Shown here: one piece after another, positions 7,127 to 21,832 of the stretch
Numbering within the stretch: position 1 is the first letter of the stretch
Layout: every line of letters begins with the position of its first letter
Source of the DNA: a virus
Virus record (IMG/VR): IMGVR_UViG_3300009545_000051
Span: 1 to 30,836 of that record
Reading direction: 5' to 3' (one strand)
Length of the DNA stretch: 30,836 bases
Notes under the pieces: generated by a model
Database searches by the model: none
The model's input: only the letters and a program-made list of their open reading frames with translations
What the model was told of the DNA's origin: nothing
Translations under genes and position numbers: made by a program

Positions 7127-7269
7127 GAACCAACGAGCAGGCCGCCGCGTACATCGCCAGTGTCATCAAGGAGCGCGAAGCGTACAGGGCCGCAGGTGAC
7201 AGGGAACAGGTGGCGCACTGCGAAGAGGAGATGAAGCGTGTGCGCGGAGACGTCAGGCAGACGCGATGA
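7123..7269 (+). CDS. Short helical hypothetical protein
   Basis: A 48-residue protein with ATGA overlaps at both ends (7123 and 7266). The sequence is almost entirely charged helix: NEQAAAYIASVIKERE, then DREQVAHCEEEMKRVRG. It has one Cys and no membrane segment. It is too short for secure family assignment. The tight coupling supports real translation. Confidence 0.6.
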   Translation: MRTNEQAAAYIASVIKEREAYRAAGDREQVAHCEEEMKRVRGDVRQTR

Positions 7270-8099
7270 CGAAACGACGGCATATCGCCTCCATTGCTGC
7301 GGCAACCATGCTGCTGATTGGCGGCCTGATTACCGGCGTCGTAGCGCTCGAACCCGCCGGAACGGCACCCCGCACCGCGGCTCATTTCCCGCCCAAAGGC
7401 GGGGAAGGTGGGGGCGGTGAAAAAGGCGAAACGGGCCTGAGCGTTCTAAACGGCAGTGGCTCCCCCAGCAGTGGCACGGGGCGCGTGGGCGAGTTCTACA
7501 TCGACACGACGGCGCACGCGATATGGGGGCCGAAGCTCTCCTCGACGTGGAGCGGCACCGGCCCCACTTCGCTGTTGGGGCCGACGGGACCGCCTGGCTC
7601 GACCGGCGCGACTGGGCCGCAGGGACCGCAAGGGATTCAGGGCACAGCCGGTGCCGAAGGGAAAGAAGGGAAAGCCGGACCCGAAGGCCCGCAGGGCGTC
7701 AAAGGGCTGACGGGCGCCGAAGGCCCCAAAGGCGCTACCGGTGAAAAAGGTGAAAACGGGCTGCCCGGAGCGACCGGCGCACAGGGTCCCGCCGGCCCCG
7801 CGGGCAAACTCGAAATCGGCGCGGTGGTCGAACCACTGAAAGAACGCGCCCAAAACACTCTCTTTGAATGCTCGGGCGCGAGCGCTTGCCTCGTCTACCT
7901 GACGATTTCGTCCAAACCCGAACTCACGGTCTACAAAATCGAAATCGAAGCGGAAACGATCATCGAAGCGAACTACACCGGCAAAGTGGCTTCCGAAAAA
8001 CGGCCGTTTACGTTCGTGCTCGCCGCCGGGAAAAAGTGGAAAGTCCCAACGACTGCGACCATTACCGAAATCAAATCGACCTATCAGGTGCTGTCGTGA
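7266..8099 (+). CDS. Signal-bearing collagen-like protein
   Basis: A 277-residue protein. Residues 1-28 form a signal peptide or anchor (basic MTKRRH, then a hydrophobic core AAATMLLIGGLITGVVAL). A Gly-rich stretch follows, then VGEFYIDTTAHAIWGPK (residues 74-90), a motif that often precedes collagen repeats in phage fibres. Residues 105-180 are 25 uninterrupted Gly-X-Y triplets rich in Pro, Glu and Lys. The C-terminal 97 residues are a beta-rich domain (VYKIEIEAETIIEANY) with two Cys, a likely trimerisation head. Virion fibres normally lack export signals, so this may be displayed on the host surface, or the hydrophobic segment may anchor a fibre. Glu codons are nearly all GAA, unlike the preceding glycosyltransferase. 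Confidence 0.88.
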   Translation: MTKRRHIASIAAATMLLIGGLITGVVALEPAGTAPRTAAHFPPKGGEGGGGEKGETGLSVLNGSGSPSSGTGRVGEFYIDTTAHAIWGPKLSSTWSGTGPTSLLGPTGPPGSTGATGPQGPQGIQGTAGAEGKEGKAGPEGPQGVKGLTGAEGPKGATGEKGENGLPGATGAQGPAGPAGKLEIGAVVEPLKERAQNTLFECSGASACLVYLTISSKPELTVYKIEIEAETIIEANYTGKVASEKRPFTFVLAAGKKWKVPTTATITEIKSTYQVLS

Positions 8100-9001
8100 T
8101 CTACGCCCAACCCGGGACCGCCTTTCAGGCCGTCCTCGACAACGCCCCGACCGGACTCGTTGGCACAATCGGAGTTCGAGTGATCCGCGACCTCGACGGC
8201 GCTACCGTCATTGCACGCACCACAGCGAACATAACCGAGGTGGTCGCGGGGTCGGGGACGTATCTGGCAAAACTGGCGGCCGCGCCGGCCGAAGCCGGCA
8301 GCTATCTCGTCTTTTGGGACACGGGCACCGTGACGCCCTCGACTACCTCGACCGAGGAAATGGTCGTTGGCGCAGCCACGGCGCTAAACCCCCCGCCGAC
8401 GGGCAGCGAACTCTGCACTCTCGCCGACGTGCGGCTGCTAATGCAGAAGGCGGCGACGGATACCGCACAGGACGCCTTCATTCAGTCACAGATTCTCCGG
8501 GTGTCGCAGGAGGTCATGGACTGGTGCGAGCGACAGTTCGCCCCGGTCGAAGAACATGCGACCAAGACATTTAGTTGGGAACGGACGGGCACGCTCGTCA
8601 GCTTCGCCCCGTTCGACCTGCAGAGCGTGGACAACCCGGAAACCTCCGTTGTTGCCGACAGCGACAACGCGACGCCCTACGTGCTCACCAAGGAAGAGTA
8701 TCGGCTGTGGCCGTATGAGGGACGCAACGGCGTGTTCACCGGAATGAAGGTGCAGCCGTTCGGCGCCTCGTACGGCAGCATTGAGTGGCCGACGCGCCAG
8801 CTTACGGTAACGGGCAAGTGGGGTTTCCCTTCGGTACCCCTGCCGGTCGTTGACGCGACGGCACTGACGGTGGTTCACCGGATCACCGGGAATGTAGCGG
8901 CCTATCGCTCGCCCGACGAAGGTCCGGTTGCCGTCCCCAAGCAGGGCTTCCCCACGGAGGCGCTCCACATATTGGCGAAATACAAGCGAGTGCCGTTCTA
9001 G
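8096..9001 (+). CDS. Head-tail connector with N-terminal beta-sandwich domain
   Basis: A 301-residue protein from GTG 8096, overlapping the preceding TGA (GTGA). Residues 1-90 form a beta-rich domain (TAFQAVLDNAPTGLVG, TVIARTTANITEV, GSYLVFWDTGTVTP) that looks Ig-like. From about residue 103 (ELCTLADVRLLMQKAATDTA, then DAFIQSQILRVSQEVMDWCE) it has the helical pattern of the gp6/gp15-type head-tail connector family, which forms the ring beneath the portal. The C-terminal part (RLWPYEGRNGVFTGMKV, LTVTGKWGFPSVP) is also seen in fused adaptor proteins. The fusion of a beta-sandwich to an adaptor is the notable feature. Position after the capsid block fits the connector role. Confidence 0.75.
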   Translation: MIYAQPGTAFQAVLDNAPTGLVGTIGVRVIRDLDGATVIARTTANITEVVAGSGTYLAKLAAAPAEAGSYLVFWDTGTVTPSTTSTEEMVVGAATALNPPPTGSELCTLADVRLLMQKAATDTAQDAFIQSQILRVSQEVMDWCERQFAPVEEHATKTFSWERTGTLVSFAPFDLQSVDNPETSVVADSDNATPYVLTKEEYRLWPYEGRNGVFTGMKVQPFGASYGSIEWPTRQLTVTGKWGFPSVPLPVVDATALTVVHRITGNVAAYRSPDEGPVAVPKQGFPTEALHILAKYKRVPF

Positions 9002-11836: not shown

Positions 11837-14800
11837 ATGGCGGCACGTACTGCGGAGGTCATCTTCGTTGGCGATGCGGCATCGCTCATCAAGGCATCCA
11901 AGGAGGCGGCGGCTGCCACAGACGCAGCCGCCGCCAAGATCGAGGGCTCCAATCGGCGGGTTGCAGCCTCTAGTGAGGCTACCGCTCGCGCCAGCAAGTC
12001 CGCGTCGAAGGTAGGGCGCGACGCCGCAGCGGCCGTTGCCGCAGTGGTCGTCGGCTCGGCCGCCCTGGCCGTCAAGTTGGAAAAGGCCACGGCCGGTGTC
12101 GCTGCCGCGGGTGGCACATCCGTTGCAGCGGCTAGCAAGATCACGTCTTCGTTCAAGCACATGGCCGAGGGCGAGAACAGCGCCCGGATGGTGGCCGAAG
12201 CGTACTCAACCGTTGCGGGGGAGCTGAAGAACGTTGAGGGGCACGCCCTGAACGCGTCCGAGGCGCTCAAGGTGATGAACGCGGCCGAACGCTTGTCGTT
12301 GGCGACCGGCGAAGACCTGAAGTCCTCGACCGAAGCGCTCGGGAAAGTCATGCTCACGTATGGCATCCACGCAGAGGGCGCAGGTGCCGCGAGCGACATT
12401 CTGTTCAACGCCTCGAAAGCGACCGGCTCACAGCTCGGGACGCTCGCGCAGACCGTTGATCGAATCCGGGGCAAGCTCGGCGCGCTGGCGCCGACGCTCG
12501 GTGAATCGGCCGGCCTAATGGACGATCTGGCAAAGCATGGGCTCAGCGGACGCCTGGCGATGGGTGCGCTAAGCGGCACATTCAACACCCTCCTCGGAGG
12601 CGGCAAGAGCGTTGCCGCGATGGCGAAGCAACTTGGCCTGAACATCTACGATTCACACGGAAAGTTCGTCGGCCTGTCATCGGTCATAAAGCAGCTACAA
12701 CCGAGACTCGCTGGCCTGACGCAGCAGTCACAACTACAGGCGACCAAGGCTCTGTTCGGCGCGTCCGCCAACAAGCAGCTCCTGAGCATCATCCTCCAGG
12801 GGCCACACGCCTTCAACGCGGCGACAGCCGCCATGTCGAAGCATGGGACCGCCGCGTCGGCCGCGAAGAAGCAATCCGAGACGCTGGAGGGTGAGTGGCG
12901 CAAGGAGAAGGCCACCGCCGAGAATCTGGGTGGGTCGCTTGGCAAGGTGCTGGTTCCCGCCATGAGGGCGGCGACGTCGGCGATCATGGACAGCGTTGAT
13001 TGGCTGAAACGGCACGAAGCCGCAGCCATTGCGCTAGGCGCCGTTATCGGCGGCGTGCTCGGCTTGGCTATTTCGGTGTACGCCTACACCAAGGCCACCA
13101 AGTTCGTCAAAGCGACGCAGGACATGATCGGAGCCGTCAAAACGCTGGCGGCGAAGATCGCGGGCTCGTCCGCTGTGGTCGAGACGTCCTTTGCTGCGCA
13201 GGCTACGGCCGCCGAGGCGGGCGCTACCGCCACCGCTGCCGCACAGGACGGCCTGGCAACGGACATTGCTGCGAAGGACGCGGCGATCGTCACTGCCAAC
13301 GAGGAGGCCGGTGCCTCCTTTACCGCCATGCTCGGCCCGATCGCTGCCGTAGTGGCTGCGGTTGTCGCGGCGCAGCCACTCATCAACAAACTGACAGGTG
13401 GCGGGATCAGCGGCGAACATAATGCCGCCGCGCATAATTCGTTCGGCACCGCCGGCTTTGGCCTGCAGTCATCGGGTGGCAAGGCTGACAAAATCGCCCG
13501 CTTCCTCCAGGAACGTGGCGGTCTTCCGGCCGCCACGGCAGCCGGAATTACGAAAATCCTGGGCGCCGAATCGGGCCTGTCCACGACCAACGCCGGCTCC
13601 GAAGGCGCATACGGGATCGCGCAGTGGCTGGGCTCGCGGCTGTCCGGCTTGCGCAAGTTCGCGGGACGGCACGGCACCTCGGGTAACTCCCTAGAAACGC
13701 AGCTCGAATACCTGCTGCACGAACTGCACGGCCCGGAAAAGGGTACGCTCTCAAAGTTGATGAAGGCCTCCTCGGTAGGGGCGGCCGAAAAGGTGTTCGT
13801 TGAAAACTTCGAGCGACCCGCGAAGTCAAATTACGGTGCAATCTACCGACGTGCGAAGACGTACCACATCAGCTACGGCGGTAAGCACATTGGCTACAAT
13901 GCCGCAGGCGGTCCTGTTGAAGAAGGCATCGTCCACGCGCACTACCACACGCCCCAGCACGGCCACCCGACCCGAACCAGTGGTACGGGTACGGTGCAGA
14001 CACTAGAACAGGAACACGAAGCGGCCAGCAAGGTCAAGAAAGCTGCGGCGAAGGCAAAGGCGCACCTGCTGTCGCCGCAGCAAATCGTAGCCTGGGCCGA
14101 ACAGCACGTCGGCAAGTTCGCCGAGTCCACCGGGAAGAACACCGGCCCGGAACTGGACAAGCTGCAGGGCGAATTTCACACTCGCGCAGCCGCATGGTGC
14201 GCCGAGTTCGCAACGACCGCCGCGATGATGGGCGGGGCGAACAAGGCAATCCGTACGGCCTCGGTTGCGACGATCCGCCAGTGGGCCGAAGAGGGCAGCC
14301 ATGGCTACCGCAAGGGCGTCAGCCACACTCCTCATGTCGGCGACATGATGATGTTTGGCAACAGCCACGTCGGTTTCGTGCGCTCGGTCAACGGCAGCAA
14401 AGTGACCACGATCGAGGGCAACACCTCCTCGGGCAAGGTTGCGATCAAGACGCATGGCGTGGGCGAAGGTGACTATGCGTCGCCGATCTATCGCAAGTCC
14501 GCGACGGGTGCCGGCGCGTTGAAAGAACTCACCGCAGGTTACGCCACAGCGGCGAAGGAAGCGGCCAAGAAACTAGCAGCCGACGCAAAACAGGGCCAGT
14601 CGCAGCTCTCGAAAATCCTGGCCGCCGTTCATTCAGGCAAGCTCGAAAACCTGACGCAAGTGGTCGGAGCCAGCCACGATAAATGGCTGGCTCGCCTTGA
14701 GGCGAAGCTATCGGGCTATCACACGTCCAAGCTGACTGACCTCAGCGGCAAACTGGTCGCAGCCCACTCCAAGTCCCTCGCCGCGATGCAGCAGGCGCTC

Positions 14801-15694
14801 GCGCGTGCCTGGCACGAAACGGTGGCAACAATCCGGTCGAAGATGACCGAACTCGTTTCCGAAGCCGGCAAGGCGTGGAAGGCGATTCAACAAGGCGTGA
14901 TCGAAGCCGCCCACAACGCCAAGATCAAGGCACTCGAAAGCGGCCCCCTGTCCGGTGCGCTGAAGAAACAGCACGAAGAAGACGAAGCGGAACAGGCCAG
15001 GCAAACCGAAGAATCGAACAAGAAGGCGTTGGAAGACGCACAGAAGCACGTACGCGAAGCCAAGGGAAACGAAAACCCGGAAGAACTGAAAACCGCGGAA
15101 GAAGAACTACGCCACGCCGAAGAAGCGATAACGCATTTCAAGCGCGAACAGGATGAGAAGCGCGAGGAAACGCAACTCGAACAGGAACGCAAAGGGATAG
15201 ATCAGGCACAGGAAATTGAACTGGAATCCCTCGACGCGCGGCAGGCGCAGTACGAAGCGATGCTGACAGGGCAGCTTGCGGCCCTGGGCTCGCAGCTCGA
15301 AAAGGGCGAGATAGCTTACGAAGCCTACGCGGCGAGGGTGAACGCGATACTCGCAAGCGTCGGGATTGCCTACACGCCCGAAGGGCCTGGCCCGACGCCG
15401 GCACCGCCTGTCATCGTCAAGGAAACGAAGCAGCCGACTAGCCGTCATCGGGCGTCGGGCGGATCCGTCTACTCGCCCCCGTATTGGGTGGGCGAGGTAG
15501 GCCCCGAGCTGTTCACTCCTGGTGTCGCTGGCACGATCACCCCGGCCAGCCGTTCAAGGGCGGCAGCGGGCGCTACAGGGGTCGCTGGTGGGCCATCCGT
15601 TCTGTTCACCGGCCCCGTCACCATGGGTTCGCGCCGGGACGCTGACCGCCTGGCCCAGCAACTCGCACACAAGCTCGCCTACGGAGGGCGCTAA
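11837..15694 (+). CDS. Tape measure protein with two peptidoglycan-hydrolase domains
   Basis: A 1285-residue protein that sets tail length and is ejected ahead of the DNA. ATG 11837 has a GAGAGGTG ribosome site. Residues 1-370 resemble the TP901-type tape measure core. Hydrophobic segments lie near 395-420 (AIALGAVIGGVLGLAISVY) and 496-515 (LGPIAAVVAAVVAAQPLI). Residues about 549-680 form a phage-tail lysozyme-like domain with ILGAESGLS (catalytic Glu near 578), GAYGIAQW and a C-terminal ENFERPAKSNYG. Residues about 745-895 form a CHAP/NlpC-like domain with AAWCAEFA (C788), NSHVGFV (H844) and TIEGN (E860/N862). A long coiled coil spans about 1025-1165. The C-terminus carries the classic VGEVGPELFTPG motif. 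Glu codons switch strongly to GAA in the second half. Confidence 0.93.
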   Translation: MAARTAEVIFVGDAASLIKASKEAAAATDAAAAKIEGSNRRVAASSEATARASKSASKVGRDAAAAVAAVVVGSAALAVKLEKATAGVAAAGGTSVAAASKITSSFKHMAEGENSARMVAEAYSTVAGELKNVEGHALNASEALKVMNAAERLSLATGEDLKSSTEALGKVMLTYGIHAEGAGAASDILFNASKATGSQLGTLAQTVDRIRGKLGALAPTLGESAGLMDDLAKHGLSGRLAMGALSGTFNTLLGGGKSVAAMAKQLGLNIYDSHGKFVGLSSVIKQLQPRLAGLTQQSQLQATKALFGASANKQLLSIILQGPHAFNAATAAMSKHGTAASAAKKQSETLEGEWRKEKATAENLGGSLGKVLVPAMRAATSAIMDSVDWLKRHEAAAIALGAVIGGVLGLAISVYAYTKATKFVKATQDMIGAVKTLAAKIAGSSAVVETSFAAQATAAEAGATATAAAQDGLATDIAAKDAAIVTANEEAGASFTAMLGPIAAVVAAVVAAQPLINKLTGGGISGEHNAAAHNSFGTAGFGLQSSGGKADKIARFLQERGGLPAATAAGITKILGAESGLSTTNAGSEGAYGIAQWLGSRLSGLRKFAGRHGTSGNSLETQLEYLLHELHGPEKGTLSKLMKASSVGAAEKVFVENFERPAKSNYGAIYRRAKTYHISYGGKHIGYNAAGGPVEEGIVHAHYHTPQHGHPTRTSGTGTVQTLEQEHEAASKVKKAAAKAKAHLLSPQQIVAWAEQHVGKFAESTGKNTGPELDKLQGEFHTRAAAWCAEFATTAAMMGGANKAIRTASVATIRQWAEEGSHGYRKGVSHTPHVGDMMMFGNSHVGFVRSVNGSKVTTIEGNTSSGKVAIKTHGVGEGDYASPIYRKSATGAGALKELTAGYATAAKEAAKKLAADAKQGQSQLSKILAAVHSGKLENLTQVVGASHDKWLARLEAKLSGYHTSKLTDLSGKLVAAHSKSLAAMQQALARAWHETVATIRSKMTELVSEAGKAWKAIQQGVIEAAHNAKIKALESGPLSGALKKQHEEDEAEQARQTEESNKKALEDAQKHVREAKGNENPEELKTAEEELRHAEEAITHFKREQDEKREETQLEQERKGIDQAQEIELESLDARQAQYEAMLTGQLAALGSQLEKGEIAYEAYAARVNAILASVGIAYTPEGPGPTPAPPVIVKETKQPTSRHRASGGSVYSPPYWVGEVGPELFTPGVAGTITPASRSRAAAGATGVAGGPSVLFTGPVTMGSRRDADRLAQQLAHKLAYGGR

Positions 15695-17310
15695 TGCTCA
15701 GCAAGGTTACGCTAGCGAATGCTGCGGGCGAAGATGTTGTCATCCACGAAGACACCCCGACGAGCCGGCGTCTGCTCATAGACGCGAAAGGGCTCGTTGG
15801 GGTAGGACCGCTTCGTGAGTCCAAGCGCGTGCGCCCCTCGGCGCACGGGTCGATCAACGAGACTTCGTTCGAGGAAGGTCGCACCATCCAGCTAACGGGC
15901 GAGGTGTGGTCGCAGGCCAGCATCGAGGCCGCTCTAGAAGAATTCCGCAAGGTCGTTCAGCCGATGCTGGAAACGCTAGACAACGGCCCGGCGCTGCTGA
16001 AGTGGACCGAGGGGTCCACGGGCCTCAAAAAGCAAATGCTCGTCACGCTCGACTCCGAAGTCGAGCCGACACTGGCCGAGGCTCAGCAGTTCCTGAACTA
16101 CCCGGTGTCGTTCTTTGCGGAGGACCCGCGCGCGTACTCGCAGGCGGAAACGAACGTTGGGCCTGGTGCCAGCGTTACCAGCGCCTCTGCAACCTCCACC
16201 GAGTTGACCACGATAGCCAACGGCAAGCGCCCTATTGCCGTGCTTGTTGACGCCTCCTTCATATATTGGATTGACGGGCTCACGGCCGCGATCGGTCGCA
16301 TGACGCTGGCCGGCGGAAGCCAACTGACCGAATGGGTGAAAACCGCCGAACCCCCGATCTGCATTGCGATCAATGGCACGAACGTTTTTTGGGGTACGGC
16401 CGGTGGCAAGATCGGCAGATGCACTATCGCAGGTGCCACGATCGAAAACGAATGGTGGAAACCTAATAGGGAAATCCGCTGCATGGCGCTGACCACCACA
16501 AAAATCTATTGGAGCACAAATCGCGGAGCCGCCAGCGAAGAAGGCAAGCGCGGGGAAATCTGGACCCGAGAACTCGCGGGCGGTGGGGCGCAGGGCGTAG
16601 GCACATGGCAGGTCCCAAACATAGCCGCAATGGCAGCCGACGCCAACTTTGTCTATTGGGGTACGACAGCTCAAACAATCGAACGGATAAAAGTCAATCT
16701 TGGGGGCCTTGAACAATTCTGGATCGCCGGTATCGGCGTGAGCCCTGCCGGCCTTGCGGTCAGCGCTTCGTTCATATACTGGCTCGGCACGGACGCCAAG
16801 GTGATCGGCCGTGCGACCATCGCGGGTGCAACCGTAGAACCCCTATTTATGAACGGGCTCATGCCCGAACCCGGGGGCCTCGCAGTCAACGCCGAACATC
16901 TTTACTTCAGCGATACCGATAGTGCCGGCGAAGCGGCCATGGCTAGAACCCCAACCCTGGCCGCGAGCGCATCGGGGGGCGGCATCACGGTCGCGCAGGC
17001 AGGCAACCGCCGGACCCCGCTGATCTTCACGATCAGGGAAGCCGTAAGAAATCCGTCGATCGTCCGAACGAGCGACAACGCTCGTATCGTGTTGAAATGC
17101 AAATTGACGGTCGGGCACGTCCTCCAAATCAATACGGCCACGCGGACTGTCACGGAGGATGGCGTCCCGGCTCCGCAATTCGTGGACCCGCAAACCAATT
17201 GGGCTGCGTTTGAAGCGGCCCCGAGCCCAGCGAGTCAGACATACATACTCACCGGAAACGAACTATTTAGCACCACGCTCGAAGCCGCCTACAGGTCGGC
17301 CCATGCCTAG
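15694..17310 (+). CDS. Distal tail (Dit-like) protein with a six-repeat propeller-like insert
   Basis: A 538-residue protein. ATG overlaps the tape measure stop (TAATG). Residues 1-150 have the look of a siphovirus Dit N-terminal domain (RRLLIDAKGLVGVGPLRESK, RTIQLTGEVWSQASIEAALE, YPVSFFAEDPRAYS). Residues about 430-538 resemble the Dit C-terminal galectin-like domain (LIFTIREAVRNPSIVRTSDN, VLQINTATRTVTEDG). Between them six YW-type repeats occur: FIYWIDG, NVFWGTAGGKIGR, KIYWSTN, FVYWGTTAQTIER, FIYWLGTDAKVIGR and HLYFSDT, the signature of YWTD/DUF5050-like beta-propellers. The insert has about 15 GAA to 1 GAG Glu codons against 8 to 9 in the N-terminal flank, suggesting separate ancestry. A baseplate hub with a receptor-binding propeller is the favoured interpretation. 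Confidence 0.82.
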   Translation: MLSKVTLANAAGEDVVIHEDTPTSRRLLIDAKGLVGVGPLRESKRVRPSAHGSINETSFEEGRTIQLTGEVWSQASIEAALEEFRKVVQPMLETLDNGPALLKWTEGSTGLKKQMLVTLDSEVEPTLAEAQQFLNYPVSFFAEDPRAYSQAETNVGPGASVTSASATSTELTTIANGKRPIAVLVDASFIYWIDGLTAAIGRMTLAGGSQLTEWVKTAEPPICIAINGTNVFWGTAGGKIGRCTIAGATIENEWWKPNREIRCMALTTTKIYWSTNRGAASEEGKRGEIWTRELAGGGAQGVGTWQVPNIAAMAADANFVYWGTTAQTIERIKVNLGGLEQFWIAGIGVSPAGLAVSASFIYWLGTDAKVIGRATIAGATVEPLFMNGLMPEPGGLAVNAEHLYFSDTDSAGEAAMARTPTLAASASGGGITVAQAGNRRTPLIFTIREAVRNPSIVRTSDNARIVLKCKLTVGHVLQINTATRTVTEDGVPAPQFVDPQTNWAAFEAAPSPASQTYILTGNELFSTTLEAAYRSAHA

Positions 17311-17702
17311 GCTTCGGGGCTAGTAACTGTTTCGCCTTCCGAAGACGGCAGTTCGCCTCCGATTGGTGGCGGTTCGCCCGGTTCGCCGGGTTCGGGTTCG
17401 AGGGACGGTTCTAGGCTTTCGCGTTCCTGTTCAGACGCGAAGGCTTCGACGCCTTCTTCTTCTTCGGCATAGCTGTCTGTTTCCGACGGGGCCGCTGCCG
17501 GGGCCGTGCTGGGTGGGGCTATCGCCACAGGCGCCGCAGGCGCGAGGTGGCGATGCCTTAGCAAATGGGCGCAGCGATGCGGGTGGCTCCTGTGGTGATG
17601 ACAGGCCGCCTGGTGGTGGTGCGCGTCGGCCGTGGGCGCAAGCCAGCACAGCGACAGACAGGCGAACCCCAATGCCATGACGTGGCACCGAATCTGTTCC
17701 AT
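17307..17702 (-). CDS. Minus-strand secreted His-rich/Glu-rich protein (moron candidate)
   Basis: A 131-residue protein on the opposite strand that exactly fills the 440-base gap between two tail genes. Residues 1-27 form a signal peptide (MALGFACLSLCWLAPTADA, with an A-x-A cleavage site). Residues 28-52 contain 11 His and 2 Cys, suggesting metal binding. The rest is Ala/Pro-rich, then Glu/Pro/Gly-rich and probably disordered. Its TAG stop shares the palindromic CTAG (17307-17310) with the convergent distal tail gene. Glu codons are almost all GAA, as in the tape measure's second half. No large plus-strand frame competes. The family is not recognised; a lysogenic-conversion or surface-modifying moron is possible. 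Composition bias leaves some doubt that it is expressed. Confidence 0.6.
   Translation of the reverse strand: MEQIRCHVMALGFACLSLCWLAPTADAHHHQAACHHHRSHPHRCAHLLRHRHLAPAAPVAIAPPSTAPAAAPSETDSYAEEEEGVEAFASEQERESLEPSLEPEPGEPGEPPPIGGELPSSEGETVTSPEA
17684..17700 (-). promoter_or_regulatory. Degenerate copy of the 17-bp operator motif at the moron start
   Basis: Read on the minus strand the site is GGAACAGATTCGGTGCC, matching the window's operator family GGAACC-RRWWC-GGTDCC with one left-arm mismatch. It lies within codons 1-7 of the minus-strand gene, where a bound repressor would block initiation. As it overlaps coding sequence, chance similarity is possible. Confidence 0.4.
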
Positions 17703-17750: not shown

Positions 17751-18932
17751 ATGGCGTCCTGGGACTTCCTGCTATGCGATTCAACAGGCCAACCGCTAGC
17801 CGAGATGACGACGGCCGCGGGCAAACAGGTCAAATACAGTCGCAACCACTTCGCCGAAGCGCAGTTCGTCATTTCTCACCGCGACGAAGCGGCCGGCCCG
17901 CTTATGCGGGCCGTGGCCGAAGGCCCCATGCCGACCCTACGCGCCTATCGCAAGGCGGCTGGGCATCCCAACGCCACGCTCAGGTTCAACGGCTACCTCG
18001 CACCATTCACGGAGGACTTGCAGCCCGACACAGCCCTCATCACCGCGCAGTTCCGGTCGCCCTTCGGTCGGCTGTACGGGGACGGCACGTCGGGGGTCGG
18101 TCGGTACACGGGCGCGTCGATCCTCGCCAGCGAACAGGATCACGTCGTCATCGCGCGAGAACTAATCGCGCTATACGGCGGCATCTACACAAAAGAAAAC
18201 ACGGCACCGGCCTTTGGGGGGCTCGTGGCGCCCGGACTCTCCTACGTCGGCCTTGGGCTCGGCACGGACACCGCACCTACGGTGCTCCGCTCGATCACCT
18301 ACCAACGCGCCAACGTCGGACAGGCGATCATCAACCTCTCCGAAGCTATCAACGGGTTCGACTTCGATGAGACGTACGTAGAGCAGGGCACCACGTTGGC
18401 GCTGTTCAACACCTACGCATCACAGGGCGAAGAAAAGCCAAACGCGCAGTTTCAGTACGGGCCGAGCACGCTCGCCAACGTAGCCTCGGTCCAACGCACC
18501 ACCGCGTCGCCCGCAAATGTCATCGTCCTGCTCGGCGCCAACGGCCTGAAAGCGGAAGTCCGCAACACGGTGTCAATCGCCAAATACGGCGAATGGGTAT
18601 ATCTCGATCAGGTCAGCGACGCGACGGCGCAGGGCGTTCTCACGGCGCGAGCGGAAGCCATCGCGGCTCGCTCGGGCGGGCCGGTCAAGACGCTGTCAAT
18701 TAGCCCGGACCTCGGTGTCCCCAACTGCCCGCAGCCGTTCGATGACTTCTACCTCGGGGATACGGTGAACTTCTATGGGGTTGACGGTGCATTCAGCGAG
18801 AACATGAAACCGCGAGTCAACGAAATGACGATCGTGATTGACGAAAACGGCTTCGAGACAACTAGCATCCCCGATCCCAACGCGCCCTACCTCCCCGACT
18901 CGCTACACACCACCTTCAAGGTGCAGGCGTAA
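17751..18932 (+). CDS. Tail protein of the siphovirus ReqiPepy6 Gp37-like type
   Basis: A 393-residue protein. ATG 17751 has a GTGAGG ribosome site. The sequence opens with MASWDFLLCDSTGQPLAEM, then VKYSRNHFAEAQFVISHRDE, RAYRKAAGHPNATLRFNGYL and DTALITAQFRSPFGRLYG. This is the two-domain start of tail-hub proteins (gp27/Tal-like) in the Gp37-like family. Later parts read INLSEAINGFDFDETY, NVIVLLGANGLKAEV and a final DDFYLGDTVNFYG. Its place after the distal tail protein fits a hub or tail-associated protein. No lytic motif is seen; the hydrolases are in the tape measure instead. Confidence 0.75.
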   Translation: MASWDFLLCDSTGQPLAEMTTAAGKQVKYSRNHFAEAQFVISHRDEAAGPLMRAVAEGPMPTLRAYRKAAGHPNATLRFNGYLAPFTEDLQPDTALITAQFRSPFGRLYGDGTSGVGRYTGASILASEQDHVVIARELIALYGGIYTKENTAPAFGGLVAPGLSYVGLGLGTDTAPTVLRSITYQRANVGQAIINLSEAINGFDFDETYVEQGTTLALFNTYASQGEEKPNAQFQYGPSTLANVASVQRTTASPANVIVLLGANGLKAEVRNTVSIAKYGEWVYLDQVSDATAQGVLTARAEAIAARSGGPVKTLSISPDLGVPNCPQPFDDFYLGDTVNFYGVDGAFSENMKPRVNEMTIVIDENGFETTSIPDPNAPYLPDSLHTTFKVQA

Positions 18933-19669: not shown

Positions 19670-19978
19670 ATGAGTAAATCCGCGTGGCTGGCACTCCTCG
19701 TCGCCTACCTCCTGAGCGGGGTGTCGTTTTACTACGTCATTCACGAGCAGGCGTCGAACCGTAAGCGCACGGTTCTGGAAAACTGCGAAGGACAAAATGA
19801 ACGCAATCGCAACACGGTTGCCGCCTATGACAGCAGAATCGCCAAGATCGGGCCGACGCTGCCGGTCGCCCAGCGTGCGCAGCTAAAGCAGAGTCGCGCA
19901 CTTACCGTGGGGCTTATCAACGCCGTTGCGCCGGTTCGCAACTGCACCGAAGTCCTACATCGCGCCGGCTTCAACTAA
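19670..19978 (+). CDS. Single-span membrane protein in the lysis cassette
   Basis: A 102-residue protein. ATG 19670 has a GGGGAGG ribosome site at about 19656-19662. Residues 5-24 are a membrane or signal-anchor helix (AWLALLVAYLLSGVSFYYVI). The rest is a hydrophilic extracytoplasmic helix with two Cys (ENCEGQNERNRN and VRNCTEVL) that could form a disulfide. The layout resembles Rz- or antiholin-type accessory lysis proteins, but no sequence match is claimed. Position between a holin-like gene and the endolysin supports a lysis role. Confidence 0.55.
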   Translation: MSKSAWLALLVAYLLSGVSFYYVIHEQASNRKRTVLENCEGQNERNRNTVAAYDSRIAKIGPTLPVAQRAQLKQSRALTVGLINAVAPVRNCTEVLHRAGFN

Positions 19979-19997
19979 CCCCCTCCTAAGGAGACAC

Positions 19998-20798
19998 ATG
20001 CGAAAGTCACTAGCGTCCTCGCGGGCGTTCCTCGCCATGCTCGGAGCTGGCGCCATCCTTGGCGGCTGCGGCTCGCACGGGTTCACCCCTCCGCAGTCTG
20101 CGGCACGCCCCGACGGTTACACGCCGGCCGCACCGCCGCTGACCCTGGCGGGGCGCTCTATCCATATCTCCACGCGCGGGCTGCGCCTGATCGAGTCCTT
20201 CGAGGGGTTCGGCTCATGTCCCTACTTCGACGCCTACGGGCGCGTATGGACCAGGGGCTATGGTGAAACTGAAGGTATCCATCGCAGCTCGCCGTGCATC
20301 TCGCGCTCGACTGGAGAGGTCCGCCTGCGTGGGTTGGTCGAAGCTCGCTACCAGTGGGCGGTGCGCGGGCTCGGCGTCTCGTTCAATCAGAATCAGATCG
20401 ACGCGCTCGATTCGTTCGTGTGGAACCTCGGTGCGGGGATTTTCACTGGCTCGCTGCGTCGCTCGATCCAGGCGCACAACCCCTACCCGCTGCTGGCGTA
20501 CGACCATGCGGGCGGCGTCGTGCTGTCGGGCCTCGCACGCCGCAGGCGCGAGGAGGTGGCTCTGTTCCTGCTGCGTTCGCCCGCCCCCGCGCCGCCGACG
20601 CAGCAGCAGCTCAAACGCCGTCTATGGGCCGACTACCGCAAGCGCGATGCGCTGCGCGTGCTGTTGACCCGTCACTCATGTCGTCCTCCCCTACACGCCA
20701 GGCCCGGGCGTTATCACACGGTTTGCGGACGCTGGCTACGTGAGGGCGCCGAAGTCAACCGCGCGATCAACGCGCTCCACAAGAAAGGCATTCGCTAG
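19998..20798 (+). CDS. GH24 endolysin with a lipoprotein-type signal
   Basis: A 266-residue lysozyme. ATG 19998 has an AAGGAG ribosome site. Residues 1-24 are a signal peptide ending in the lipobox ILGGC (C24), predicting lipid attachment after export. The catalytic domain (from residue 55) shows the T4-lysozyme triad pattern: E69 in SFEGF, D78 in YFDAYG and T85 in WTRGYGET, plus GVSFNQNQIDALDSFVWNLG. The enzyme would cleave the MurNAc-GlcNAc bond. The C-terminal 80 residues are basic with RRRLWADYRKRDALR-type sequence, possibly wall-binding. Exported endolysins are known, but a lipobox on one is unusual. Confidence 0.85.
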   Translation: MRKSLASSRAFLAMLGAGAILGGCGSHGFTPPQSAARPDGYTPAAPPLTLAGRSIHISTRGLRLIESFEGFGSCPYFDAYGRVWTRGYGETEGIHRSSPCISRSTGEVRLRGLVEARYQWAVRGLGVSFNQNQIDALDSFVWNLGAGIFTGSLRRSIQAHNPYPLLAYDHAGGVVLSGLARRRREEVALFLLRSPAPAPPTQQQLKRRLWADYRKRDALRVLLTRHSCRPPLHARPGRYHTVCGRWLREGAEVNRAINALHKKGIR

Positions 20799-20800
20799 AC

Positions 20801-21832
20801 ATGCGCAAGTGGCTGGTCCCGGGCACGGCTGCCCTCATCGCCGCGGCACTGATTGCCGCCTACCCCGGAGGATCGCAGCATCCGTCAGTCGCCCTGGCAG
20901 CCACGGCGACACCGCTCGAAGCGGCCGTCAAGGCCGACTCAGCCGCCGATTCGGCCGTCAAGTCGGCCGAATCGAGCCTCGCCGCAGCGCGTAGCGTCAA
21001 GACCGCAACGGCCGAAGCCGTGCTTGCTGCCGAATCAAAAGAAGAACAGCCAAAGGAAGAAACAAAAACGAGCGCCGTGGTGAACTCGTCGCCGACGGGT
21101 CCGGGCGGCACATGGAAGGCCGAGTTCGCGGACGGCTTCAACGTGCCGCTTGCGCAGGACCCGGCATGGAAGGTGAAAACGAACTCGAAGGGGTGCTGCG
21201 GCAATAGCAACGAAACCTCTACGGAGGTCGCTAGCGCCAGTCGGCAGAGTGAAGCAAACGGGCTCGAACTGCTCTGCGAAGGACTCGCTTGCTCGGGCGT
21301 CAGCACTAACGGGTTCACCTACCAGCTCGGCCGTGGGGCGTCGTTCGCGTTCGAGACTGTGGCGAAGCTGCCTAACAACACGTCGAGCGGCGAGGACCCG
21401 GGGTTCTGGAGCATCAGCACCACGCGCTGGCCTCCCGAGCTGGACTTCTTTGAGTATTGGGGCTGGAATTGCACCACGGGCTGTATCGGCGGCTTTCCGG
21501 TCTACAAATCAAGCGGGCTCGGCACGAAGGAAGCCTATGTGACACTAGGTACCCTGCTCGGCGAACAGCCTTGGCTGAAGTACCACCGCTATACGACGGT
21601 TGTCGAAGGCTCGACGTTCACGGAGTACGTCGACGGCAAACGCACCGGCGGCTTCGCACAGTCCGTCAACACGGACGCAATGAACGTGATCCTGACGCAC
21701 GCCCTGCGGGTCAGCACGACGCCGAGGAGCACATGCTTCTGCGTGCGATCGGTCGCGGTGTACGAGGACGCAGCCCACGCCGGCCAGTTCGTGTCCAATG
21801 CCGGCACGGCGCCAGGCACCATCATCAAATAA
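20801..21832 (+). CDS. Secreted GH16-type glycosidase in the lysis cassette
   Basis: A 343-residue protein. Residues 1-33 are an export signal (LVPGTAALIAAALIAAYPGG core). Residues 35-90 are an Ala/Glu-rich helical spacer. A GH16-like jelly-roll follows from about residue 105 (WKAEFADGFNVPLAQDPAW). The retaining-glycosidase signature is complete: ELDFFEYWG, with E213 nucleophile, D215 and E218 acid/base. Seven or more Cys suggest disulfides and an extracytoplasmic site. GH16 enzymes cut beta-1,3/1,4-glucans, galactans or similar polymers, so it may degrade a host capsule or cell-wall glucan. It follows the endolysin by 2 bases. Confidence 0.82.
   Translation: MRKWLVPGTAALIAAALIAAYPGGSQHPSVALAATATPLEAAVKADSAADSAVKSAESSLAAARSVKTATAEAVLAAESKEEQPKEETKTSAVVNSSPTGPGGTWKAEFADGFNVPLAQDPAWKVKTNSKGCCGNSNETSTEVASASRQSEANGLELLCEGLACSGVSTNGFTYQLGRGASFAFETVAKLPNNTSSGEDPGFWSISTTRWPPELDFFEYWGWNCTTGCIGGFPVYKSSGLGTKEAYVTLGTLLGEQPWLKYHRYTTVVEGSTFTEYVDGKRTGGFAQSVNTDAMNVILTHALRVSTTPRSTCFCVRSVAVYEDAAHAGQFVSNAGTAPGTIIK

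Follow-up and report, generated by a model that had tools for sequence, protein, structure and literature searches.

Distal tail proteins (Dits) form hexameric rings, in which the C-domain of each copy lies at the periphery and makes contact with the hub or with receptor-binding proteins (PMC7048315, PMC7291167). In certain phages, this scaffold is elaborated further. For evolved Dits, which bear carbohydrate-binding modules (CBMs), binding to host cells has been demonstrated (PMC7291167), in agreement with the premise of an earlier, sequence-only reading of the DNA considered here, namely that Dit insertions elsewhere carry such modules. The Dit of mycobacteriophage Corndog, gp58, also contains a large domain, in this case situated between domain I and the C-terminal domain (PMC13252515). 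Finally, a beta-propeller is found in the siphophage baseplate of Staphylococcus phage phi11, where the cavity of the receptor-binding protein Gp45 has been proposed to accommodate GlcNAc (PMC4901313).

The DNA analyzed here is virus record IMGVR_UViG_3300009545_000051 (30,836 bases), the whole of which is referred to as the window. On the basis of sequence comparison and structure prediction, it very probably encodes a Dit in which a complete six-bladed YWTD/Vgb-like beta-propeller occupies the linker between the ring domain and the C-domain.

Dit identity of the flanking regions

The ORF in question (15694..17310, plus strand; 538 aa) lies between sequences encoding a tape measure protein (11837..15694, plus strand; PF10145, PF18013, and PF05257) and a hub/Tal-like tail protein (17751..18932, plus strand; phrog_1885 minor tail, E 5.6e-6). 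When read by eye as unaligned sequences, the latter resembles the products of hub genes found downstream of Dit in two relatives lacking the insert, L003 and L005. Pfam family PF22768 (SPP1_Dit) matches Dit residues 437-507 (E 2.7e-7; 31.2 bits, cut-off 25). Among PHROG families, matches were obtained with phrog_5577 and phrog_5360 (minor tail protein), the former covering the N domain and the latter spanning both flanks across the insert, together with a weaker match to phrog_33 (Dit).

The insert-free relatives were reached via the tail-tube protein and N-domain alignment, and encode Dits of 280 aa (L003, 15910-16752) and 298 aa (L005, 3959-4855). Alignment with these two proteins, which also served to set the bounds of the insert, defined an N-terminal ring domain (residues 1-158; 15694..16167, plus strand) sharing 48% identity with L003 and 44-46% identity with L005, and a C-terminal Dit domain (residues 429-538; 16978..17310, plus strand) that pairs with the C-domains of both relatives and shares 27% identity with that of L005. 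The sequence-only reading had described an insert splitting the Dit into N- and C-terminal halves and had proposed comparison with Dits lacking it. That comparison bears out the description, with L003 and L005 aligning on either side of residues ~159-428, a region missing from both.

As a natural insert-free stand-in for the window flanks, the L005 Dit was folded, yielding a model with a mean pLDDT of 69. The best PDB matches to this model (Foldseek) were Dit-bearing tail tips or baseplates of Douge, monocin, NF5, SPP1, p2, 80alpha, Bxb1, and TP901-1, with the Dit structures matched being 2x8k, 8zdo, 9j1k, 2wzp, 6v8i, and 4v96. Comparison with the SPP1 Dit (2x8k) gave a Z score of 13.5 over 230 residues and an rmsd of 8.7, a high value of the kind that might arise from a different hinge angle between two domains. 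The L005 Dit also aligns with minor tail proteins of Streptomyces phage SV1 and Arthrobacter phage KeAlii (80-89% of its length; ~22-28% identity), and the Dit scaffold can, therefore, be described as actinophage-like. The cultured actinophage matches to L005 run uninterrupted for ~710-800 bases, with no gap the size of a propeller. The window protein thus presents the C-terminal SPP1_Dit domain, the N-terminal ring domain (its fold as predicted for L005), and the gene position of an SPP1-type Dit, and is assigned from its sequence as the ring-forming Dit of a siphovirus-type tail. Family matches, alignment, and the predicted structure of the insert-free homologue accordingly agree with the earlier assignment of the flanks as Dit.

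Several other features of this region were noted. The tape measure protein contains two peptidoglycan-hydrolase-type domains, tail-lysozyme (PF18013) and CHAP (PF05257). The Dit and hub genes are separated by a gap of ~440 bp containing an antisense ORF (17307-17702, minus strand; 131 aa) with a signal-peptide-like start, whereas in L003 these two genes overlap; given that overlap, the content of the gap may correspond to a moron gene or to chance. Further downstream, the N-terminus of a phage lysozyme-type endolysin (19926-20798, plus strand) looks like a lipoprotein signal (AILGGC), which is unusual for endolysins. The adjoining ORF (20801-21832, plus strand) presents a secretion-signal-like N-terminus and weak similarity to GH16 (PF00722, E 6.5e-4, under the cut-off).

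The inserted module and its predicted propeller fold

The inserted module (residues ~159-428, with blades at ~168-416; 16168..16977, plus strand) contains six [IVL][YF][WF] motifs, found at residues 190, 231, 271, 320, 361, and 403 (nucleotides 16261, 16384, 16504, 16651, 16774, and 16900, respectively) and spaced by 41, 40, 49, 41, and 42 residues. When the insert sequence was shuffled 20,000 times, a mean of 0.16 motifs and a maximum of 3 were obtained, such that the six YW-type repeats first noted from the sequence can be considered real. The corresponding blade repeats, all on the plus strand and with approximate bounds, span 16237..16377 (repeat 1, VDASFIYW..IGRMTLAGG), 16360..16500 (repeat 2, INGTNVFW..IGRCTIAGA), 16480..16640 (repeat 3, LTTTKIYW..., with a loop 8-9 residues longer), 16627..16760 (repeat 4, ADANFVYW...), 16750..16890 (repeat 5, VSASFIYW..IGRATIAGA), and 16876..16977 (repeat 6, VNAEHLYF..., the closing blade).

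In the AlphaFold2 model of the window Dit, generated from an 11-sequence alignment, residues 181-410 form a block with pLDDT values mostly of 80-92 and with strands in regular groups, the values being lower (60-73) in the region of blade 3 (residues ~271-310). The whole model has a mean pLDDT of 72.4 and, with 11 sequences in the alignment, a pTM of 0.51, so that the position it gives the propeller with respect to the Dit domains is provisional. When compared with the PDB using VIA-align, the insert matched Pizza6, a designed six-bladed propeller, with a Z score of 28.1 (236 residues; rmsd 2.3). Other matches were to NHL propellers (Z ~26), the propeller lactonase RPA3624 (Z 25.4), and the YWTD propellers of LRP6 (Z ~25). 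Structure prediction thus returned the closed, six-bladed propeller that the sequence-only reading had anticipated.

In terms of sequence, the closest chains of solved structure are those of LRP2, LRP4, and LRP6 (LRP2, phmmer E 1e-10). Since the insert scores under the Pfam gathering threshold for Ldl_recept_b (12.3 bits vs. 21), it is termed YWTD-like by fold and motif, rather than being considered a member of that family. Vgb_lyase gave no match in the window insert, with only the sister propeller in L010, described below, passing the threshold.

Relatives and origin of the module

Direct searches of viral contigs and cultured phages, using the whole window Dit or the insert as query, returned no relatives. 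These were instead reached through the tail tube, N-domain alignment, and motif patterns. The pattern YW-x7-IGRA, applied to 2.9 million viral contigs, yielded seven contigs. Two more propeller proteins, L034 and L036, were obtained with a second pattern. Other pattern matches (L033, L035, and L037-L043) were set aside, as the sequences are not six-repeat YW propellers. L014 was likewise set aside; here, a PEP-CTERM YWTD propeller with four Ldl_recept_b stretches (L014:1170-2156, plus strand) is found on a viral-classed contig that is possibly host DNA.

The Dit-propeller architecture was detected in records L010/L029 and L012/L028, with the gene lying directly 3' of that encoding the tape measure protein in both. 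L010, a 69-kb contig, encodes a Dit of 510 aa whose linker holds a propeller, as in the window, scoring above the cut-offs of both SPP1_Dit (46.9 bits) and Vgb_lyase (71.6 bits). L011, a fragment identical to L010 in its N-terminal sequence, was left out of the separate count. L012, an 80-kb contig, encodes a 954-aa Dit (full gene L028:3863-6727, minus strand) in which an additional N-terminal region precedes the ring domain and a linker propeller, and in which, as read from the sequence and alignment, YW repeats recur within the C-domain. Two propellers, in the linker and in the C-domain, thus appear to be present in this protein. A BFVD match, A0A6J5MW16 (596 aa; uncultured phage), may be another propeller Dit. 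YW propellers are also found in other phage proteins. In L013/L031, a 792-aa possible Dit (L031:1640-4018, minus strand) with a propeller mid-protein directly follows a 2037-aa protein at the tape-measure position and has no clear Dit family match, and in L009, the propeller protein shows tail-fibre PHROG matches and a CBM5/12 match under the curated cut-off.

In 50,697 cultured-phage records, tblastn searches with the window Dit, its insert, and the L036 propeller returned nothing. When L010 was the query, the C-terminal part matched sequences in Streptomyces phages, one annotated as Dit-like, and the propeller part matched two Streptococcus phage proteins annotated as putative hydrolase. No match to the L012 queries was obtained at E 0.01, and the only three seen at E up to 1 are weak and do not span the propeller. 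An N-domain alignment search of bacterial and archaeal species genomes found nothing, and in the Acidobacteriota, the sole cellular group covered, weak propeller matches were obtained in 5 of 297 genomes. Among the open-access papers listed for propellers and Dit structures, none was seen to describe a Dit containing a propeller.

The relationships of the rings and of the propellers were then compared. In the ring domain, L010 and L012 share 52-53% identity with each other and only 18-23% with the window, whereas their linker propellers share just ~23%. Rather, the L010 propeller is nearest to those of L009 (41%), L036, and an acidobacterial genome protein, and the L012 linker propeller is nearest to those of L013 and the window, with the window propeller scoring best with L012_p1. 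Forcing the L010 and L012 propellers into one clade was 23 log units worse (p-AU 0.023), in a propeller tree that is poorly resolved, with long branches and modest internal support. At the same time, the closest relatives found of the window ring, L003 and L005, are without an insert. Together, the existence of insert-free relatives and the discordant ring and propeller relationships argue for acquisition or replacement of the module independently of the scaffold, although faster evolution of an exposed domain could add to the disagreement. The propeller module would, as such, have been gained, lost, or exchanged apart from the Dit scaffold, and independent exchange is considered likely on the strength of these sequence comparisons.

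The sequence-only reading had reached a similar view from a flip in Glu codon use. The counts themselves were reproduced, with GAA:GAG ratios of 15:1 in the insert, 8:9 in the N-terminal flank, and 4:1 in the C-terminal flank. As evidence of foreign origin, however, the skew was rejected, since an equal preference for GAA is seen in ORF 7266-8099 (21:1) and in 270-codon stretches of the tape measure gene (up to 16:1 and 33:3). When overall synonymous usage was considered, the insert and flanks differed with a permutation P = 0.026. Separate acquisition is thus better supported by the comparative evidence, namely, the insert-free relatives and the discordance between ring and propeller, than by the codon argument. 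ORF 7266-8099 (plus strand) is itself extreme in its Glu codon use relative to its neighbors and overlaps ORF 7868-9001.

Codon use in the insert that differs somewhat from the rest of the window, together with the existence of cellular YW propellers (L008; Acidobacteriota genomes), would also be expected were the insert an assembly artefact, i.e., a chimera of a phage Dit and a cellular propeller gene. Such an origin is nonetheless highly improbable, given that the sequence forms a single open frame, with the C-terminal Dit domain in frame downstream, and that the architecture is shared by two further records of uncultured phages, the rings of which are distantly related.

Proposed role and comparison with known systems

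Because Dits form hexameric rings, a domain in the linker would be repeated six times around the tail tip. Here, six copies of the window protein, as in other Dits, would form the ring joining the tail tube to the hub, with six propellers, one in the linker of each copy, positioned around the tail-tip rim. Each propeller would bind a ligand at the host surface, probably a cell-wall or surface glycan, and such binding would strengthen or determine adsorption. By analogy with described systems, adhesion or receptor binding is the more probable function of the propeller. The L009 protein, with its tail-fibre PHROG and weak CBM5/12 matches, was counted in favor of this assignment.

The propeller could alternatively serve as a structural adaptor, a platform on the Dit ring to which another baseplate protein, either receptor-binding or accessory, would dock, with no contact of its own with the host. 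Precedent exists in Corndog, where domain II, found in the same linker, helps form a deep pocket anchoring the gp60 trimer (PMC13252515), and in 80alpha (PMC7048315) and p2 (PMC7291167), where the receptor-binding protein is anchored by the Dit C-domain. In the window, however, no clear fibre or receptor-binding protein gene was seen from the hub to the endolysin; the only products read in this interval were a minor-tail protein of 131 aa and one of 107 aa whose C-terminus is hydrophobic. Moreover, docking of a Dit partner is inapplicable to those other phage proteins that carry YW propellers, including that with tail-fibre and CBM5/12 matches. An adaptor role is, as such, considered unlikely. 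Still, the absence of a fibre gene from the window does not alone implicate the propeller, since insert-free L003 shows no obvious fibre gene either.

An enzymatic role, whereby the propeller would act as a Vgb/SGL-type lyase, lactonase, or glycan hydrolase degrading a host surface polymer, was also considered, as the sister propeller in L010 exceeds the Vgb_lyase cut-off and RPA3624, one of the structures matched by the window model, is a propeller lactonase. Yet the family match may reflect merely the broad propeller fold, and the window insert holds a single His, at a repeat position adjoining the YW motif. In the first 11-row propeller alignment, no polar residue was invariant or nearly so, a pattern more in keeping with ligand binding that has diverged than with a catalytic site common to all. 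Catalysis thus appears quite improbable.

Taken together, the best explanation overall, held with moderate confidence, is that the window protein is a variant of the evolved Dits in which six propellers around the tail tip constitute an exchangeable host-adhesion module. Judging solely by the Dit relatives and by distant terminase matches to Streptomyces phages, the host is probably actinobacterial. A broader and distinctly more tentative proposal is that in uncultured, probably actinobacterial, phages, a swappable YWTD-like propeller in the linker, and sometimes also in the C-domain, could be the main host-recognition cassette, passing from one tail protein to another irrespective of the scaffold, with the Dit ring itself serving as the receptor-binding protein.

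Like the evolved Dits of Lactobacillus, lactococcal 936, and streptococcal phages, the window protein is a Dit ring protein decorated by an inserted module, and that module is absent from homologous Dits. In the evolved Dits, however, CBMs are found in galectin-domain loops (PMC7291167), whereas the window protein presents a propeller in the ring/C-domain linker and is, therefore, a variant, rather than a typical evolved Dit. L012, with its apparent second propeller inside the C-domain, differs in this respect from the linker-only arrangement of the window. Corndog gp58 offers an insert at the corresponding position, although there a Rossmann-like alpha/beta domain, rather than a predicted propeller, is found. 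In phi11 Gp45, the propeller is five-bladed and part of a separate trimeric receptor-binding protein, as opposed to lying within the Dit. The YWTD/LRP and Vgb-like propellers (PF00058, PF24684, and PF16472) are similar to the window insert in their YW repeats but are found outside phage tail proteins, with the insert scoring under their Pfam gathering thresholds. Finally, a common Dit scaffold is shared with SPP1 gp19.1 and the minor tail proteins of Streptomyces SV1 and Arthrobacter KeAlii.

CBMs in C-domain loops and one solved alpha/beta domain in the linker of Dits were thus already known. What is new is the presence of a predicted linker propeller, a type of binding module not found in cultured phage Dits at the sensitivity of tblastn, in three uncultured phage records representing two distantly related ring families. 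This offers a point from which to test how uncultured, probably actinobacterial, phages recognize their hosts and, alongside Corndog gp58, supports the linker between the Dit ring and C-domain as a general site for inserted modules.
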